Below are positions 29,832-40,017 of a DNA stretch of 64,000 bases, piece after piece. The number at the start of each line of letters is the position of its first letter. Within the stretch, counting starts at the first letter, position 1. The position numbers and the translations under genes are program-made. Source of the DNA: Trichothermofontia sichuanensis B231 (GTDB taxonomy: Bacteria > Cyanobacteriota > Cyanobacteriia > B231). The stretch spans positions 4,235,741 through 4,299,740 of the forward strand of contig NZ_CP110848.1 in assembly GCF_026240635.1 (NCBI RefSeq). Direction: 5' to 3'. The notes beneath the pieces are model-generated. The model was not told where the DNA came from. It made no database searches and saw only the letters and a program-made list of their open reading frames with translations.

Positions 29832-30431
29832 GCTGCGCGGGTATCTCGTAGAAGATCTTAGTCACATCATCCGGGAGAAAAGGTTGGTATGCTAGAGGCT
29901 ACCGGCTCCTCCCCTCCCTATTCCTATAGGATGACCTATCTATAGGAATATTAAATGATTGTGAAGGTGTTCGGGTGCATTTGGGTTACTGATTAGAGCC
30001 GTTTCCCCATCAGAGTGTCTTATCAGTCTATCCGGACAGCGGTACCCAACCCCAGAATGTCATAACAAACCAAGTTGCAACGATCGTTAAAGGCAACGGT
30101 TAGGGGCATCCCCCTTGAAGTCTTGGCATCAGGTCTCCATAGGAAAATGTCCAGGGAGAGGCACAGCGGGGGATAAGACCTGTCAGTCGGAGAGGACTCA
30201 GATTAGAATTTATCTGGGGTGCTCTAGCTCAACCGCAACGACCGGGGGAACTTGTTCCGATCCCTCCCTTATTTTTGTGTATTTACATGATATGACAGCC
30301 TAAGCGAACCAGTTCTCGTTGGATAACGACTACACTCCTCCTTGGTGCTCCCTACCCTTAGCAAAATGGCAGCGGGAGGGGGCAAGTTGATCAGATCAGT
30401 AAAGACTGCCCTGGCAGCAGGAGCGCGGTGC
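29832..30431. other. Intergenic region, no gene recognised
   Basis: About 600 bases between the divergently arranged NYN and cyclase genes. CTATAGGATGACCTATCTATAGG around 29923-29946 contains small inverted elements. No ORF with protein-like character, tRNA or named repeat was found; it presumably contains the promoters of both genes. Confidence 0.4.
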
Positions 30432-32873
30432 ATGAGGTCCCCAGACAGTAAAAAACCGAAGTTATTGGTTGTCGATGATGAGCCAGACAACCTGGATTTG
30501 CTGTACCGCACCTTCCGCCGCGAGTATCATGTTCTACGGGCAGAAAGTGGTCCCAAGGCACTGGAGATCTTAGAGCAAGAGGGCAACGTCGCAGTCATCA
30601 TTTCTGACCAGCGGATGCCAATGATGAGTGGGACGGAGTTCCTCAGTCTGACGGCGACTAAATACCCGGATACAATTCGGATTATCCTCACCGGTTATAC
30701 CGATGTGGAGGATCTGGTGGAGGCCATCAATGCGGGCCGGGTTTTTAAGTACGTCACCAAGCCTTGGGATGATCAGGAACTCAAGGCAGTGGTGAAGCAG
30801 GCGGTGGATACCCACAACGTCCTGCGTGCACGGACCCAAGAATTAGCCCGAACCCTGCGGCAGGAATCGCTGCTGAATGCGCTGACGAACACGATCCGTA
30901 GCGCTCTGGATTATCGCCAGATCCTCCAGACGATTGTCGAAGCGGTCGGACAATCCTTTGATGTGGATTACTGTTTACTGCGTCCCTGCCAGGATAACCA
31001 ACTCCAGGCAGAGACTTTTGTGTATCAGCGAGGCCAAGGACAGTCAGCCGCGACTACATTTGCAACCCTGGAAGCAGCTTTCCTTGACCCCCTGCCCGTG
31101 CCGCCAAACCACGCCCAGCTAACGATCGCTGAATTCCCGCTACAGAAAACTGTATGGGCGACGCGGGAAGTCCAACGGATTCATAATCTGGAGGAACTAG
31201 AAGTGGTGTGCCAGACAGCGCTCCCGCTGGCGGGGGGGGATCCGGTCGCGTACCAGCAGGAGCTACGGCAGATCTATGAAGCAATGGATATTCATGCCAG
31301 TTTGCTGGTTCCCTTGATCTGTCGCCAAGAATTGATGGCGGTTTTAGGGCTACATCAGTGTGGTCAGCCGCGCTTTTGGGATGAGGCCGATGTCACGCTG
31401 ATTAGCACGGTAGCGGATCAGGCTGCTTTGGCGTTGGCCCAGGCCCAATCCTACGAACGGGTGCGGGCACTGGCCCAGCGGGAATCCCTGGTCAATACCA
31501 TTACGACCGCGATTCGCTCTAGCCTCGACCCTGAACAGATTTTTGCCGCCATTACCCAACAGTTGGGGGAAGCGCTTCAGGTGGATAGCTGTGCCCTTTC
31601 CCTATGGTCGGAAGGTGATCAGTTTGTCCGGTGTGTGGGGTTATATACGCGGGAGTCGGGGAGCGGTGGTCCTGGCTCAGGGGCTAAGGGAGGTGAGACA
31701 CCTGCTCCGGTACATCGGATATCTCCCCTAGCGACGGGTGAACTGGGTGAAGTGGGGATCGGCTATCCGCAAGCGGAGGATGAGCGTTTGATGGCGATCA
31801 ACCATCGGCAATTGGAGGAGCGGTTATCTGGCAAGTCTGGCTCCTCTCCCGTGTCTTCTGCTTTGCCCCAATCCAGTGTCCCGATCGAAAGCAATCCAGC
31901 TCTGCAGCAGTTGTTGCTGCACCAGGAACCGGTGGTGATCGATGATGTGCAGCAGCATCCGGAGTTCCAGTTGCCGGACATGGTGCCCCATCCCCAAACC
32001 CGATCGCTGTTGATTGTGCCCTTGATAACCGATGGCAAAATTATTGGCAGTATTTCCCTGCGGCAGGTGGAAACGCCCCGCCGTTGGCAACCCAATGAGG
32101 TGGAGTTGGCACTGGCGGTGGCCACGCAAGCGGCGATCGCGGTGCAACAGTCGCGGTTATATCAGCGGGTAGCAGAACTGAATACCTATCTAACGGAATC
32201 GGTTCTGCGGCGATTCTTGCCGGCTTCTCTGGTTAAAAAAGCAGCCGTTGGGGAGTTGTCGTTAGATTTGAGTCCAGAACCGCGGTTAGTGACGATTTTA
32301 TTTAGTGATATTGTCGGTTTCACCCGGCTGGCGGGTCGGCTGAAGTCACGGCGGGTAGCGGCGTTGCTCAACGAATACCTGGAGGCGATGGTGGAGGCCA
32401 TTTTTGCGAACCGGGGAACGGTGGATAAGTTCTTGGGGGATGGCATTCTGGCGCTGTTTGGCGCACCGGAGGAGTTGCCCGCTGATGAGCAGGTTCGCTG
32501 TGCGATCGCGACGGCGCGTCAAATGCAGGTTAAGCTGATTGCCCTCAATGAACGGTGGGTCAGTCAGGGGATTGGTTCGATCCAGTTTCGGTGTGGGATT
32601 CACCAGGGCAGCGTGGTTGTTGGGATGTTCGGTAGCGCGGTGCGATCGGACTATACGGCGATCGGGCCAGCGGTGAATATTGCGGCACGGCTTCAGGAGG
32701 CAGCCACACCGGGCACAATTTTAGTATCGGCGCGGGTGGCGGGTTATCTTGACTCTAGCGATCTCCTCCAGGGCCATGCGTTGCATCTCAAGGGCGTGGA
32801 GCAGCCGTTTCAGGCGTTCACGGTGCGATCGTACAGCCAGGTCTCGGCTCAGGAATCGAGCGTCCGTAGTTAG
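30432..32873 (+). CDS. Receiver-GAF-GAF-adenylate cyclase signalling protein
   Basis: An 813-residue hybrid regulator that would make cAMP under control of a phosphorelay and GAF-bound ligands. Order: receiver (about 8-125; LLVVDDEPDNLDLLYRT, phospho-Asp in VIISDQRMPMMSG, Lys in KYVTKPWD), a helical linker, two GAF domains (about 145-330 and 345-580) and a class III cyclase (about 605-790). Metal Asps are in FSDIVGFT (about 624) and FLGDGI (Asp 670); Lys666 and the Thr in YTAIG fit ATP rather than GTP; N and R in VNIAARL complete the site. I start it at ATG 30432, preceded by GGAG, where the receiver homology begins; an in-frame start 30 codons upstream is less likely. Confidence 0.9.
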   Translation: MRSPDSKKPKLLVVDDEPDNLDLLYRTFRREYHVLRAESGPKALEILEQEGNVAVIISDQRMPMMSGTEFLSLTATKYPDTIRIILTGYTDVEDLVEAINAGRVFKYVTKPWDDQELKAVVKQAVDTHNVLRARTQELARTLRQESLLNALTNTIRSALDYRQILQTIVEAVGQSFDVDYCLLRPCQDNQLQAETFVYQRGQGQSAATTFATLEAAFLDPLPVPPNHAQLTIAEFPLQKTVWATREVQRIHNLEELEVVCQTALPLAGGDPVAYQQELRQIYEAMDIHASLLVPLICRQELMAVLGLHQCGQPRFWDEADVTLISTVADQAALALAQAQSYERVRALAQRESLVNTITTAIRSSLDPEQIFAAITQQLGEALQVDSCALSLWSEGDQFVRCVGLYTRESGSGGPGSGAKGGETPAPVHRISPLATGELGEVGIGYPQAEDERLMAINHRQLEERLSGKSGSSPVSSALPQSSVPIESNPALQQLLLHQEPVVIDDVQQHPEFQLPDMVPHPQTRSLLIVPLITDGKIIGSISLRQVETPRRWQPNEVELALAVATQAAIAVQQSRLYQRVAELNTYLTESVLRRFLPASLVKKAAVGELSLDLSPEPRLVTILFSDIVGFTRLAGRLKSRRVAALLNEYLEAMVEAIFANRGTVDKFLGDGILALFGAPEELPADEQVRCAIATARQMQVKLIALNERWVSQGIGSIQFRCGIHQGSVVVGMFGSAVRSDYTAIGPAVNIAARLQEAATPGTILVSARVAGYLDSSDLLQGHALHLKGVEQPFQAFTVRSYSQVSAQESSVRS

Positions 32874-33624: not shown

Positions 33625-34626
33625 TTGCTCGCTTGGAATGAAGGGAAGGGTACGGAGTTGAACCGCAAACGCATTTTTATCACTGGGGCCAGTGGTTGTA
33701 TTGGCCACTACCTGACCGATCGCCTGATCCAGACCACTGATCACGACCTCTACCTCCTGGTTCGCACCCCTGCCAAACTCCAATTCAACCCTCAGGCCCG
33801 TCCCGGCATTACCGTGCTCCAGGGTGACCTCGAACACATCGAGCAACATGCTGACCTGCTCAACACCATTGATCTTGCCATTCTCGCCGCCACTGCCTGG
33901 GGCGATCCCAAAACTACGGTCACGACCAACGTGGACAAAACCCTTACCCTCCTTACCCTCCTTAATCCAGACCGATGTGAGCGTGTTCTCTACTTCTCCA
34001 CTGCCAGTATCCTGGGCCGCGACAACCAACCCCTGCCGGCGGCGGGCTCTCTCGGCACTGACTACATCCGAACCAAATATGAGTGCTACCAACGCCTTGC
34101 CGAAACCCCGATCGCCGATCGCATTACCACCCTTTTCCCGACCTTGGTTCTGGGGGGGGGACCCGATAAGCCCTATTCCCATCTCTCCTCTGGTATCGCT
34201 GAGGTCGTGCGCTGGATTGATCTGATTCGGTTTTTCCAAGCCGACGCCAGCTTTCACTACATCCACGCCCAGGATATCGCCCAAGTGGTGACCTATTTAG
34301 TCGATCCCCCGGCAGACTTTATCCTTCCCCGCACGGTGGTGTTGGGGAATGCCGCCATTACGGTTAACCAGGCGATCGCTGAGACCTGCCATTACTGCCA
34401 CCGTCGGATCTACTTTCGGATTCCCTTAACCCTCTGGCTGGCCAACTTGCTGATTACGCTCTTCCGGGTCCAAATGGCCGACTGGGATCGCTTTTGCCTC
34501 CAGTATCGCCACTTTACTTACCAAAATCCGGTTAACCCAGCAACTTTTGGTCTCGCCCCCTACTGTGACACGTTTACGAAGGTGTTGGTGGTCAGTGGTA
34601 TCCGGCCAGGGGGCAATTCGGGTTAA
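33625..34626 (+). CDS. NAD(P)-dependent sugar epimerase/dehydratase-like protein
   Basis: A 333-residue extended short-chain dehydrogenase. The dinucleotide motif is IFITGASGCIGHYL, followed by VLQGDL and TNVDKTLTLL. The usual YxxxK is seen as DYIRTKYECYQ (Tyr..Lys), with FSTASILG as the Ser/Thr strand. Both candidate starts are TTG (33625 and 33658); the second, just before NRKRIFITG, may be the true one. Reaction unknown; atypical SDRs of this sort act on sugars or isoprenoids. Confidence 0.8.
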   Translation: MLAWNEGKGTELNRKRIFITGASGCIGHYLTDRLIQTTDHDLYLLVRTPAKLQFNPQARPGITVLQGDLEHIEQHADLLNTIDLAILAATAWGDPKTTVTTNVDKTLTLLTLLNPDRCERVLYFSTASILGRDNQPLPAAGSLGTDYIRTKYECYQRLAETPIADRITTLFPTLVLGGGPDKPYSHLSSGIAEVVRWIDLIRFFQADASFHYIHAQDIAQVVTYLVDPPADFILPRTVVLGNAAITVNQAIAETCHYCHRRIYFRIPLTLWLANLLITLFRVQMADWDRFCLQYRHFTYQNPVNPATFGLAPYCDTFTKVLVVSGIRPGGNSG

Positions 34627-34645
34627 GAGTTGTCCCGATCGGAGT

Positions 34646-34869
34646 TACAGCCTTTACCTCAACCATAAAGTACAGTTTTACAAAAGTAGGCTGGGTGCAG
34701 CCCGCTGGTACGGCCCTCACCCTAAATCCCTCTCCCAGAGCGGGAGAGGGACTTGCAAATCCGGCCTCCCTTCGCCCCACTTGGGAGAAGGGGTTGGGGG
34801 ATGAGGGCTGCGGGTTGGATTGAGATCCAAACCTTAACCATGTACTGAGTAAATTAAGTAAAGGCTGTA
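34646..34869. repeat. Family A short repeat, fullest copy (MITE-like)
   Basis: The reference copy, 224 bp, begins and ends with TACAGCCTTTAC in inverted orientation. Sequence similarity of the ends continues for about 28 bp. Two internal hairpins (CCCTCTCCCAGAGCGGGAGAGGG and CCCCACTTGGGAGAAGGGG, each written in part here) lie inside. No coding capacity. The ends resemble those of the IS630-type element at 47471-48500. Confidence 0.85.
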
Positions 34870-34970
34870 TAGTCATTGCAATTTAGGCTGAAACAGCACT
34901 CTGACCGCCAACCCCTCTCCCAGAGCGGGAGAGGGGCTTAGCCATCTCTTTCTAATCTGAAATAACTATA
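34868..34970. repeat. Family B short repeat, divergent copy
   Basis: It begins TATAGTCATTGCAATTTAGG, sharing its first bases with the end of the family A copy, keeps the central hairpin, and ends in a diverged AACTATA. The right half differs from other copies, so it is an old or recombinant element. Confidence 0.6.
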
Positions 34971-35150
34971 GCTAAGCAGGGGAACATTCGCCTGGGCAGG
35001 TGCTTCCCGACTAATGGGAACGTGACGGGTTCTGGGGGGGGGATACCCCTTGACGTATCCCAGGATAGATGCCAAATCTCCGACTGCTGCAATACAACTG
35101 AGGTAGGGAGTTGCATCATATACACACGTACAGGGCCATTCAGGGAAGCT

Positions 35151-38100
35151 ATGCCACGAGTCAACAGGCGGGGATTTTTCCAGCTAGGGTGTCCAGATTA
35201 CTACGCCATTCTGGGAATCCCGATCCAGTCCAGCCCAATAGCCATTCAGGCGCGGGGTACTCAGTTGAGCCGCTCCCTGGAAGCTGGGGCTAACCAAGCT
35301 CCGCCCGAGCGTCGTCCACTCATTGAACAATGGTTACGACAGGCTTTAACCCCAGCCCTAACCTACTTGAGCCAGGATGCCGATCGCCGAGCCTGTCTTG
35401 CCCAACTCTGGCGCACTGCCCAGCAGTCCTATCAACGGGTTCCGGAACAAATCCTGGTTAGTGAAGCTGCGCAACACCTGCTCCAGGTGGAGGACGGGGA
35501 AGTAGCCAGGTTTTATCGCTATTTTGTGACCCAGATCCGGAAGAGGCAATACCAACAGTTCTCTCGGATTTGGGAATTCACGGGGCAACTCAGTGAACTC
35601 AATCTGGCCTATCTATGGCGACTCATCCAACGCCAACAGGCGACAACCGCTCCCTCTGTCTCCAAGCCGAATAGCCCAGCGGTGGCTCCAGAATATCCCC
35701 TCACTCCTTTTTGCTATCGAGCACTCCAGACGGGCTATGCAAACCGAGTACAGATTCAACAGGCACTGGCGCAATACCAACAATACCAATCGAATCGCCC
35801 AGGGTCTTCCCAGGCGGCTCACCCGTCCCTCCCGCTGATCTTGGCGGCGATCGTGGGGCACCCTTTGCCCGTTACTCTGTCTCGGGATTATGAGCAGTTA
35901 CAACGCTTTGAGCACAGCCTGTACTATGGGGTGCCCTGGGTAGACCCCGATCGCTTACCCCTCAGCCCACCGGCTTGTCCTCCCCACGAAACCCTGGCCC
36001 GCATTGCCCAATTGGTCACGACCTACTGTGATCTGGAAACCTGTCAGCAATACCGTTGCTTGCCACTGGCAGAGGTCGGGCGCGGAGCGTCGCCGCCGGA
36101 GAATCGCCAGTTGATCGTGGGGATGGTGCATCCCGATGATACGGCGGCATATCAAGCGATCGCCGAGCGGGTGTCCTCCCATGCCGTTATCCTGCAACGG
36201 ATGGGGCTTTTGGCAGCCGACTTTGAGCAGTTGTGGCAAGGGGTATCCGATCTCCTGAGTGCGGCGTCGGTCCCCGTCCTATCGACAGAAACCCTCACAA
36301 CTCAGGTCGGGAGAACGCCTACCCTTAGCGGGCAGGCGGAGACAGCCTCTGAGACGCAGTCCGAAAGTTCTCAGGCGGCTGCCATCCCCCCTAAGCGCCA
36401 GTCCTCTTCTGGTTTGCCTATCGAAGCGATCATCCCGACAATTTTAGAGCGGGCGATCGCCGAGCAGGCATCAGAGATCCACATTGAACCTCAGGCGAAT
36501 AACCTGCGGGTACGGTTCCGCCTTCAGGGCATCCTGAAGGAGCGCATCCCCCCGCTCGCCCCCCAACTGATTCCGACGATTACGGCCTGTTGTAAAAGCA
36601 TGGCGGACCTGGAAGTGGGTACCCACACCCTGCCCCAGCAGGGGCGCTTCCAGCAAACCTTGCAAGGGCGGGAGATTGATTTTTTAGTCAATACGGTGCC
36701 CAGTCGCTATGGCGAGAAGATTGTCTTGCGGGTGCTTGATCCCCAAGCGATCGCTGATTTGGAAACCCATGTGGGGGATCCTTCCCTCCTATGGCAAATC
36801 CGGGACCTGATTAGTTACCCCACCGGGTTGCTGCTGGTTTCTGGCCCCCGCAGTTCGGGCAAATCGACGACCTTGTTCAGCATCCTGGCGGAACGGAATC
36901 AGGCAGGATTGAGTATTACGACGGTGGAAGATCCGATCGCCTATCGGCTGGCGGGCATTACCCAAACCGAGGTCAACCCGGCCAAGAACCTGGACTTCAA
37001 GGCCAGTATCCAGGCAGCCCTTGCCCAACAGCCCGACGTGTTGGTGGTGAGTGATATTCGCGATGCGGAGGTGGCAGCAGCAGTGTTTGAAGCCTCCCAG
37101 CGCTGTCTGGTCCTGTCAACCCTAGCGGCGGAGGGGACGGTGGATACGATCGCAGAACTGATGCGCCTGGCAGTTGACCCTGGGACGCTGACGCGATCGC
37201 TGCGGGGGATCATCCATCAGCGCCTGGTCCGGCTGGTGTGTCCGGCCTGCCGTATCCCCTACCAACCTACCCGCGATGACGTGGCCCAGTATGGCTTGGG
37301 GATAGATGATGTTGCCCAGGTCACCTTTTATCGAGCCGCCTCCCTTACCTCCCCCTTTACCGCCACTGAGATTGGGGCGGCCAGTGCCCATGTGTGTTCC
37401 TCCTGCCAGGGGACAGGCTACCAGGGGCGGCGGGCCTTGTTCGAGATCCTATTGATGACGGACGATATCCGGGCACTGCTATTACAGAATGGTTCCCTCC
37501 ATGAGGTGAAGCGCCTTGCCCTATGCCAGGGAATGATTCCACTTTGGAGCCAAGCCCTCACCCTAGCCTACCAGGGGAAAGTCGCCCTGGATGTTCTGGG
37601 GAATATCCCCTTTGATGGCACGATGCTGGCCTATGTTACCTCTGTGCCGTCACCCACTACCCGTGGGACGATTCCCCAACCCGCCCCTGCCTATGCTGAG
37701 ATCATTCCAGAGGGGGATACTTATGCTCCCCAGATGGCCCCAGTGCACGAAACCAAACTGGCGGAAAGTGCACCCCAGGCGGCTCCCGCGGTGGAGCAGG
37801 CCAAATATCGCAAACAGGGTCAGGAGGAGGTGTTATTGGCCCTGATTGAAATGTTTGAAGCGTTTGAATATGCTAAATCGTTGACCCGAACGAGTAGCCC
37901 AGGTGAAATGGCCATTCAGCGGGGCTATCAACAGATTTTCGATCGCTTGATTACCCGTCTAAGCGCTTTTGGTTTTGAACCGACCGCCTTTGTGGGGACA
38001 GCGTTTGACCCGCATCTGCATGAGGCGATCGCCGTTGAAACGACGGATCGGTTCCCCCATCGCACCATTCTGGAAGTCCAACAACAGGGGTATGCGATCG

Positions 38101-38159
38101 GTCCCAAAGTATTACGTCTTGCCCAGGTTAAGGTGGCGATCGCGCCTAACGCTGAGTAG
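35151..38159 (+). CDS. PilB/GspE-like secretion ATPase fused to a C-terminal GrpE domain, with J-like N-terminus
   Basis: A 1002-residue fusion. N-terminus (about 15-90): GCPDYYAILGI and a later LSQDADRRACLAQLW resemble the start and end of a J domain, but the HPD tripeptide is absent. Then come about 300 residues without clear motifs and a low-complexity linker. Residues about 440-770 are a PilB/GspE ATPase: ASEIHIEPQANNLRVRFRLQG, Walker A GPRSSGKST (565-573), TVEDPIAY, SDIRD (634-638) and the zinc Cys pairs 697/700 and 749/752. Residues about 888-998 are a GrpE nucleotide-exchange domain (GTAFDPHLHEAI, ILEVQQQGYAIG, KVLRLAQVKVA). The Walker B and His-box residues are changed. I start at ATG 35151; an upstream in-frame start adds 43 unlikely residues. 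The combination suggests coupling of DnaK chaperoning to pilus or secretion motors; that is inference. Confidence 0.85.
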   Translation: MPRVNRRGFFQLGCPDYYAILGIPIQSSPIAIQARGTQLSRSLEAGANQAPPERRPLIEQWLRQALTPALTYLSQDADRRACLAQLWRTAQQSYQRVPEQILVSEAAQHLLQVEDGEVARFYRYFVTQIRKRQYQQFSRIWEFTGQLSELNLAYLWRLIQRQQATTAPSVSKPNSPAVAPEYPLTPFCYRALQTGYANRVQIQQALAQYQQYQSNRPGSSQAAHPSLPLILAAIVGHPLPVTLSRDYEQLQRFEHSLYYGVPWVDPDRLPLSPPACPPHETLARIAQLVTTYCDLETCQQYRCLPLAEVGRGASPPENRQLIVGMVHPDDTAAYQAIAERVSSHAVILQRMGLLAADFEQLWQGVSDLLSAASVPVLSTETLTTQVGRTPTLSGQAETASETQSESSQAAAIPPKRQSSSGLPIEAIIPTILERAIAEQASEIHIEPQANNLRVRFRLQGILKERIPPLAPQLIPTITACCKSMADLEVGTHTLPQQGRFQQTLQGREIDFLVNTVPSRYGEKIVLRVLDPQAIADLETHVGDPSLLWQIRDLISYPTGLLLVSGPRSSGKSTTLFSILAERNQAGLSITTVEDPIAYRLAGITQTEVNPAKNLDFKASIQAALAQQPDVLVVSDIRDAEVAAAVFEASQRCLVLSTLAAEGTVDTIAELMRLAVDPGTLTRSLRGIIHQRLVRLVCPACRIPYQPTRDDVAQYGLGIDDVAQVTFYRAASLTSPFTATEIGAASAHVCSSCQGTGYQGRRALFEILLMTDDIRALLLQNGSLHEVKRLALCQGMIPLWSQALTLAYQGKVALDVLGNIPFDGTMLAYVTSVPSPTTRGTIPQPAPAYAEIIPEGDTYAPQMAPVHETKLAESAPQAAPAVEQAKYRKQGQEEVLLALIEMFEAFEYAKSLTRTSSPGEMAIQRGYQQIFDRLITRLSAFGFEPTAFVGTAFDPHLHEAIAVETTDRFPHRTILEVQQQGYAIGPKVLRLAQVKVAIAPNAE

Positions 38160-38276
38160 GTTAAGGGGGGGATGGCAGACCGGAAATGGGTTGCAAGGCT
38201 GGGAAATTGGAATAACAGGCCAGTCAATTGGAGTGATGACAGGCTAGAGGGCCTCATTGGGTGCATCTCACTTATG

Positions 38277-38377
38277 CGGCCCTCACCCTAAATCCCTCTC
38301 CCAGAGCGGGAGAGGGACTTGAAAATTAGGCTCCCCTTCTCCCCACTTAGGAGAAGGGGTTGGGGGATGAGGGCCGC
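38277..38377. repeat. Family A core repeat with its own inverted ends
   Basis: ATGCGGCCCTCACCC at the left and GATGAGGGCCGCAT at the right are inverted repeats around the two family A hairpins. Outer GCATCTCA and TGAGATGC (about 38263 and 38389) extend the symmetry. It lacks the usual TACAGCC ends. Confidence 0.65.
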
Positions 38378-38456
38378 ATCTTGCCCAACTGAGATGCTCC
38401 CGCCTCATTCCCCAGGTTTGTGGATCTCGTGGATCTATTTTGTTAGGGATATCGCC

Positions 38457-38859
38457 ATGAAACGATCGTTAGGTTGCCTGATCACCCTAACCGGCTGTCT
38501 AGGTTTGGTGTTAGTGAGTCCGGCCCAAGCCCAGCGGTGGCTCAATCGACCTGATTTTTTTGAGCAGGGACGCGAGCAATTTGAATAGGAGCAGACCTAG
38601 CCCAGGATGCGAATGGGACTTGACGCTGGTACAAAACCAGATTGTGGAGCAGGTGGGCACCGCCGCCAGTCCCGTTCAAACGCTTGAATTTTCGGGGAAT
38701 CCGGCCCAAGAATTTACCCTGAAGGATGCCACCGAAACGATTCAATTTCGTTTAGTTCTCCACCAAAACCGTCTTTTGGTTCTGGGAGTCAGCCAGCCGA
38801 ATGCGACTACTTCCGCCCCAACGGTAACCGCCTTTTTCGATTCCCTCACCTTCCTGTAA
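38457..38859 (+). pseudogene. Remnant of an exported lipoprotein-like/secreted protein gene
   Basis: ATG 38457 opens a clear signal peptide (GCLITLTGCLGLVLVSPAQA) followed by QRWLNRPDFFEQGREQFE and then a stop at 38586. In another frame, about 38620-38859 encodes VEQVGTAASPVQTLEFSG, EFTLKDATETIQFRL and FFDSLTFL, which resembles the C-terminus of cyanobacterial secreted proteins that begin with the same FFE-G-QFE pattern. The middle, usually over 100 residues, is missing. I read this as one gene broken by an internal deletion and frame change. Confidence 0.6.
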
Positions 38860-38961
38860 GCTGGATTAGCCCACCATTACGAGATCCCTTTGGCGTCACG
38901 CCGCGATCGCACCTCTTTACGGCGAGCAAATGGGAGGGCGTCACCGCTGGAGAATTGCATT

Positions 38962-40017
38962 ATGCCCAGTAAATCCGATCTGATTCGTAGCTTTAATCCT
39001 AATACCATTGCCCTCGATAATGGCAACTTGTTGGGGTTGCCGTTTGATTACGATACCGCAGATGTCATTGTGATTGGGGTGCCGTGGGAGGTAACGGTTT
39101 CCTATCGTCCGGGTACGGCTTGGGGGCCGCAGCGGGTGCTGGCAGCTTCTCGACAATTGGATATCTACGATTTTGATTATCCCGATGGTTGGCAACGGGG
39201 AATTTTTATGCTCCCGATCGCGGCTGACATCAAACAACAGAGTGATGATTTACGGACACGGGTTGAGCACATTCTGGAATGCCTGGAAAACGGGGCAGAT
39301 ATTGAGCATAATTCGGAACTGTGCGATACACGCGATGCGATTGAACAAGCCTGTTTAGCCCTCAATCAATGGCTGTTTGCACAAACTAAAGCAGCGATCG
39401 CAGCAGGAAAATGGGTCGGCATCCTTGGTGGGGATCATAGTGTACCCTTGGGGTATCTTCAGGCATTGGCTAGTCATTATGATAACTTCGGGATTTTGCA
39501 CATTGATGCCCATGCTGATCTGCGTGTCGCCTACGAAGGCTTTCAATTTTCCCATGCCTCAATTATGGATAACGTGTTGAAACTGCCCCAGGTGACGAAG
39601 TTAGTGCAAGTCGGGATTCGGGATCTGTGCCATGAGGAAATCGATCGCATTGGGCAGTCCGCAGGTCGGGTAGTGATGTATGCAGATCCCTGGCTGAAAT
39701 CAAAGCGATATCATGGGGTAACCTGGCAGGCATTGTGTGAACAAATCGTTGAACACCTGCCCCAGCAGGTCTACGTCAGCTTTGATATCGATGGTCTTGA
39801 TCCCAAACTGTGCCCCAATACCGGTACACCTGTCCCAGGCGGCTTGGAACTGGAAGAAGCGTTCTGTTTGTTTCGTGAAATTGTGCGCAGTGGTCGCCAA
39901 ATGATTGGGTTTGATGTGTGTGAAGTGGGGAATGGAGAATGGGATGCGAATGTCGGAGCACGGGCAGTTTATAAACTGTGTAACTTAATTGGATTACCCC
40001 CCCAGCCACGGCCATGA
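38962..40017 (+). CDS. Arginase/agmatinase-family ureohydrolase (possibly guanidine hydrolase)
   Basis: A 351-residue binuclear metal hydrolase that releases urea from a guanidino compound. Metal ligands are in ILGGDHSVPLG, HIDAHADLR and SFDIDGLDP. The N-terminal segment (LGLPFDYDTADVIVIGVPWEVTVSYRPGTAWGPQ, in part) is long relative to classic agmatinase and recalls the cyanobacterial group that includes guanidine hydrolase GdmH. Substrate choice between agmatine, arginine and guanidine cannot be made here. I use ATG 38962, where the family sequence starts, not a frame opening 24 codons earlier. Its stop overlaps the nfi start by four bases (ATGA), so the two are translationally coupled. Confidence 0.88.
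   Translation: MPSKSDLIRSFNPNTIALDNGNLLGLPFDYDTADVIVIGVPWEVTVSYRPGTAWGPQRVLAASRQLDIYDFDYPDGWQRGIFMLPIAADIKQQSDDLRTRVEHILECLENGADIEHNSELCDTRDAIEQACLALNQWLFAQTKAAIAAGKWVGILGGDHSVPLGYLQALASHYDNFGILHIDAHADLRVAYEGFQFSHASIMDNVLKLPQVTKLVQVGIRDLCHEEIDRIGQSAGRVVMYADPWLKSKRYHGVTWQALCEQIVEHLPQQVYVSFDIDGLDPKLCPNTGTPVPGGLELEEAFCLFREIVRSGRQMIGFDVCEVGNGEWDANVGARAVYKLCNLIGLPPQPRP

Follow-up and report, generated by a model that had tools for sequence, protein, structure and literature searches.

A gene of the hot-spring cyanobacterium Trichothermofontia sichuanensis B231 joins a DnaJ3-type J region, a degenerate PilB-type ATPase and a GrpE module in one polypeptide, which we propose, with a probability of roughly one half, to be a non-catalytic adaptor of the cyanobacterial DnaK1/type IV pilus chaperone system. 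We favour a natural fused adaptor because the three parent families are already tied to one pilus-associated chaperone system, and this is the best-supported reading, ranking above those of an active motor, a decoy or a relic. Expression, binding, localisation and function of the fusion are what we infer here. When genes are found fused in nature, this is independent evidence that the separate proteins act in concert. Here the joined families are those reported, from two-hybrid assays and genetics, to cooperate with DnaK1 at the pilus motor of cyanobacteria, and the same genome keeps the separate DnaJ3, PilB and GrpE genes alongside it.

The gene and its reading frame

The fusion gene lies at 35151..38159 of the window (the whole stretch of 64,000 nucleotides that was analysed) on the + strand, as do all features of the fusion given below. 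From the ATG at 35151 to the stop ending at 38159 it forms one uninterrupted frame of 1002 codons plus stop, with no internal stop. A longer start at the GTG at 35022 is possible; we used ATG 35151, which coincides in the alignment with the start positions of related proteins. The encoded protein consists of the J-type region (residues 1-176), the PilB ATPase (about 177-820), a P/A-rich linker and GrpE (882-996). A frame as long as this without a stop would arise with a probability of 1.8e-11 from the gene's own positional base composition and is therefore more than chance. The initial annotation of a PilB/GspE-type ATPase fused to GrpE was borne out by this single 1002-residue frame, in which Pfam recognises both T2SSE and GrpE.

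It is extremely improbable that an assembly error or chance joined the three canonical genes, a danger that the initial annotation had raised for two genes. Apart from the rarity of the architecture, we found nothing in favour of such an artefact. The genome consists of one contig with 4,436,989 bases, and two sequencing technologies, both deep, cover the published assembly (387x Nanopore and 181x short-read; PMC10172474). The frame is single throughout, and canonical DnaJ3, PilB and GrpE genes are intact at separate loci of the same genome. The fusion modules share just about 30-36% identity with these canonical proteins, and are too diverged for a mis-join of the canonical genes to have yielded the fusion.

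The J-type region

Residues 1-176 (35151..35678) matched cyanobacterial J-TPR proteins alone besides the fusion itself, at 60-77 bits, when compared by phmmer with the ORFs of all compared loci, including this genome's other J-protein loci. The Pfam DnaJ profile had no match in these residues, whereas it gave 45 bits with the genome's own J-TPR paralogue. The AlphaFold2 (AF2) model of the module (mean pLDDT 89, pTM 0.84) can be superposed on J domains of known structure, with about 65-70 residues fitted at about 2.2-3 Å and Foldseek probabilities of up to 1.00, which is supportive rather than decisive because the E-values are about 0.3-1. In the alignment, the HPD motif, retained by all 24 of 24 relatives, is replaced by EAG (residues 44-46; 35280..35288). 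The DnaJ3-specific (SELNL) helix TGQLSELNLAYL (residues 144-155; 35580..35615) keeps five of six conserved columns. A Pfam scan found no TPR in the fusion, and the DnaJ3-like part stops near residue 165, with PilB next. The J-like N-terminus lacking HPD, as first noticed in the letters of the sequence, is upheld by the J-TPR homology and the HPD-to-EAG alignment. Judged by homology, this J-like region is real, and it is specifically DnaJ3-like, not a generic J.

The J-TPR protein of this genome has 331 residues and carries both HPD and TPR; in two other genomes, the J-TPR gene adjoins an inositol-monophosphatase-like gene (suhB-type by sequence reading). DnaJ3 (Sll1384) contains TPRs, alone in this among the DnaJ proteins of Synechocystis (PMC12288463; PMC9948308). 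We assigned the J-TPR protein to DnaJ3/Sll1384 by architecture, the published DnaJ3 being compared by description, not by sequence.

The PilB-type module

Residues about 177-820 (35679..37610) align with the genome's own PilB over 629 columns at 36% identity, and Pfam T2SSE matched residues 422-809 (E 1.1e-77, 261.7 bits, cut-off 24.9). The scores stayed below the NCBIfam equivalog cut-offs for PilB (299.7 of 675.65 bits) and GspE (305.5 of 630.25), and the fusion retains 104 of the 192 columns (54%) that are invariant in 20 cyanobacterial PilB proteins. The alignment showed that Walker A, GPRSSGKST (residues 565-573; 36843..36869), keeps its invariant Lys, and that both CxxC pairs of zinc cysteines (697-700 and 749-752; 37239..37406) persist. 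Walker B is degenerate, reading DVLVVSDIRD with GE changed to SD (629-638; 37035..37064), and so is the His box, with TLHTND changed to TLAAEG (649-663; 37095..37139). EDPIE has become EDPIA, AERR has become GTHT and DFRV has become DFLV. The module specifically resembles cyanobacterial PilB in sequence, and it is probably a pseudo-ATPase, since it no longer has the catalytic Glu or the His box and several invariant Arg are missing. The initial description as a bona fide secretion ATPase holds for the fold, which is certain, but it was too strong on activity.

The fusion could instead be an active alternative pilus or secretion ATPase, with Asp replacing Glu and the DnaK co-chaperone modules regulating it. 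The intact Walker A, both cysteine pairs and the recognisable whole T2SSE fold fit this alternative, yet we consider it improbable, as the His box has been lost along with the catalytic Glu, several invariant Arg and the Glu of EDPIE, and 16 of 41 conserved columns survive in the stretch from Walker B to the His box.

In addition to the canonical pilB-pilT-pilC cluster, the genome encodes a second GspE/PilB-type ATPase of 559 residues (C1:2616192 on; L049:6193-7872) and a PilT-like ATPase whose N-terminus is P-rich (C1:4111711 on; L050:6712-8247).

The linker and the GrpE module

The P/A-rich linker (residues 821-881; 37611..37793) contains 11 Ala and 10 Pro in 61 residues and has low pLDDT where modelled. 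In the following module (residues 882-996; 37794..38138), Pfam GrpE (PF01025) was matched with an E-value of 3.9e-21 and 75.9 bits against a cut-off of 25.8, so the C-terminus did not fail the GrpE profile, which would have spoken against the fusion. The best NCBIfam GrpE score, 75.9 bits, lies below the equivalog cut-off of 184. The AF2 model of residues 846-1002 has a mean pLDDT of 74 and a pTM of 0.54, and all 11 Foldseek matches at E<0.001 were GrpE chains (best 8e-8). The beta-domain pattern, FDPxxHEA and GYxxGxxVLRxAxVKVA, is present, extending from FDPHLHEAI (952-960) to QQGYAIGPKVLRLAQVKVA (978-996) at 38004..38138, with 17 of 26 conserved columns kept. Profile, motifs and model agree with the GrpE beta-domain that had been proposed for the C-terminus. 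At the positions of E. coli GrpE R183 and V192, residues which we take to matter for DnaK, the fusion has Lys and Val, respectively. The stalk is shortened: the alignment has a gap there, three of 11 conserved columns are kept and no stalk helix of the length sought was found. Dimerisation is in doubt because the stalk and the helical bundle are poorly conserved.

We also considered a family of HTH-GrpE-like proteins as the source of this module and found no support for it; the GrpE module of the fusion gave no match to the family at E up to 10. The member in this genome (C1:1964294-1964983 on the - strand; L003:1486-2178) has 230 residues and combines a weak GrpE-like beta-domain with a Cro/C1-type HTH (PF13443). 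Among the 39 cyanobacterial genomes searched, B231 among them, 35 had a match to this protein, in some of them in the C-terminal half alone.

Paralogues, decay and distribution

Read from its sequence, the fusion is a diverged paralogue of three genes that have intact copies in the same genome. It forms a very long branch in each of the module trees (9.97, 3.9 and 10 changes per column); its placement is not fixed, so an origin from the genome's own paralogues and a transfer both fit. The decay has been uneven. Three of 11 conserved columns are kept from HPD to helix III, and the stretch from Walker B to the His box is similarly eroded, whereas Walker A retains 13 of 19 and the SELNL helix and the GrpE beta-domain are largely kept. 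These last three are the parts that persist once catalysis is lost. We read this as a maintained protein that lost catalysis, since the catalytic residues disappeared while the frame stayed stop-free, codon usage remained like that of host genes and motifs were kept.

A relic heading for loss, with no present function, would also show the long branches in all three modules, the lost catalytic residues and the confinement to one genome among the matches listed in class-wide searches. We regard this as quite unlikely, given 1002 codons without a stop though about 3.7% of single substitutions would create one, the host-like codon usage and the specific motifs retained in all three modules. Somewhat less remote, albeit still unlikely, is a dominant-negative decoy, which, lacking exchange activity itself, would dampen the system by entering mixed rings with PilB or by blocking DnaK1. 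The loss of catalytic sites from two modules while partner-facing parts persist is compatible with such a decoy, as is its coexistence with intact gene copies. However, no part of the GrpE module is better preserved than the beta-domain, which carries out nucleotide exchange in the known complexes, and mixed rings are uncertain with just 54% of the invariant PilB columns kept.

Class-wide searches with the N-terminal 397 residues (291 genomes) and the C-terminal 321 residues (390 genomes), both counts including this one, gave no second fusion among the matches listed. The domain-architecture survey suggested at the outset thus yielded no second example among the matches listed from up to 389 other genomes of the class. 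The listed matches in other genomes were separate J-TPR or PilB genes with about 41% identity or less; these searches list the best matches and might overlook a fusion that is partial or far more diverged. B231 is the sole genome of its order in the survey, and the order of genome G006 is likewise represented by one genome. Two scans of genome contigs found no relative with the fusion architecture, the second returning just one Verrucomicrobia and one Planctomycetota stretch at 30-34% identity. Full-text searches of open-licence papers found no description of such a fusion, and within that literature the initial statement that none was known is not contradicted.

The flanking DNA

Two copies of a hairpin repeat, 88% identical, bracket the fusion (window 34692-34811 and 38258-38377). 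As the repeat core CCCTCTCCCAGAGCGGGAGAGGG occurs in 176 exact copies across the genome, we set the repeat aside as a cause of the fusion. All listed copies from 1.968 to 2.909 Mb lie on the + strand, while earlier copies are mixed. Rfam had no match in window 34400-39000, and promoter and terminator scans gave nothing above shuffles. Downstream, at 38457-38859, a short signal-peptide-like ORF and a likely gene body lie in different frames with a T run at about 38556; they are likely the same gene, either frameshifted or affected by a sequencing error. Upstream, at 30342-32873, a protein with response regulator, GAF and adenylate/guanylate cyclase domains is encoded. cAMP affects motility in some cyanobacteria, and a link between this cyclase protein and the fusion is therefore possible.

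A candidate adaptor of the DnaK1/pilus system

As a chaperone system, DnaK1, DnaJ3 and GrpE interact with active type IV pilus motors, and Nostoc requires this system for polysaccharide production; in two-hybrid assays DnaK1 contacted PilB, DnaJ3 and GrpE each (PMC9239167; reviewed in PMC12288463). Since the module identities match these published DnaK1 partners, the fusion unites DnaJ3, PilB and GrpE. The initial view of a motor bracketed by J and GrpE modules holds in its three parts, by sequence and model, and is refined to a DnaJ3-type J region and a PilB-type ATPase from families of DnaK1 partners. In this genome, grpE adjoins pilB on the opposite strand, with dnaK and dnaJ following grpE, and a GrpE homologue occurs in 14 of 20 pilB neighbourhoods fetched from other cyanobacteria.

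Together with this published partnership and gene neighbourhood, the adaptor reading draws on the domains and folds assigned to the modules, the J region's match to the J-TPR family alone among the sequences compared, the preferential loss of catalytic stretches, the stop-free frame with host-like codons, and the intact separate copies of all three genes. Against it stand the restriction to one known genome, the doubtful GrpE dimerisation, the DnaK1-PilB contact that, although observed in Nostoc, was not seen in Synechocystis (PMC9239167), and the fact that no type IV pilus gene was seen near the fusion in window 30-44 kb.

As an adaptor, the fusion could join or mimic the extension motor through its PilB fold, which may still bind ATP, while the DnaJ3-specific helical region would supply contacts with the motor or with clients. 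At the C-terminus, the GrpE head on its flexible linker would engage DnaK and stimulate the release of nucleotide, and in this way DnaK might be held and recycled at a motor on which the fusion is docked. The J part should not by itself stimulate the DnaK ATPase because HPD is gone, nor should the motor part drive pilus extension in the absence of the catalytic Glu and the His box.

A bolder reading, which we put forward tentatively and hold to be less probable than the adaptor, is a single-chain pseudo-motor, a PilB-shaped subunit in or beside the pilus motor whose own nucleotide-exchange head drives or times the DnaK cycle there. If true, it would couple Hsp70 directly to a pilus or secretion ATPase in a manner that would be new. 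The fusion offers a compact, testable construct with which to study how the state of the pilus motor is sensed by an Hsp70 system and how that system controls polysaccharide output.

Comparison with known systems

The published DnaK1/DnaJ3/GrpE pilus system comprises the same families, namely TPR-type DnaJ3, GrpE and the DnaK1-contacted PilB; its parts are separate, whereas the fusion is one polypeptide without TPR or HPD and with a degenerate motor. With DnaJ3/Sll1384, the fusion shares the SELNL helix and probably the J-type fold, but neither the HPD nor the TPR of DnaJ3. Cyanobacterial PilB aligns over the whole module, including the N-terminal domain, N2D, Walker A and the zinc cysteines; the fusion differs in lacking the catalytic Glu, the His box and the C-terminal Cys-rich tail and in bearing the additional J and GrpE modules. 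The helical part and the beta-domain of GrpE (PF01025) are both found in the fusion, above the curated cut-off, albeit with a shortened stalk and tethered to another protein. Finally, the cyanobacterial HTH-GrpE-like protein also carries a GrpE-like beta-domain on a non-GrpE partner, but it constitutes a separate, widespread family.
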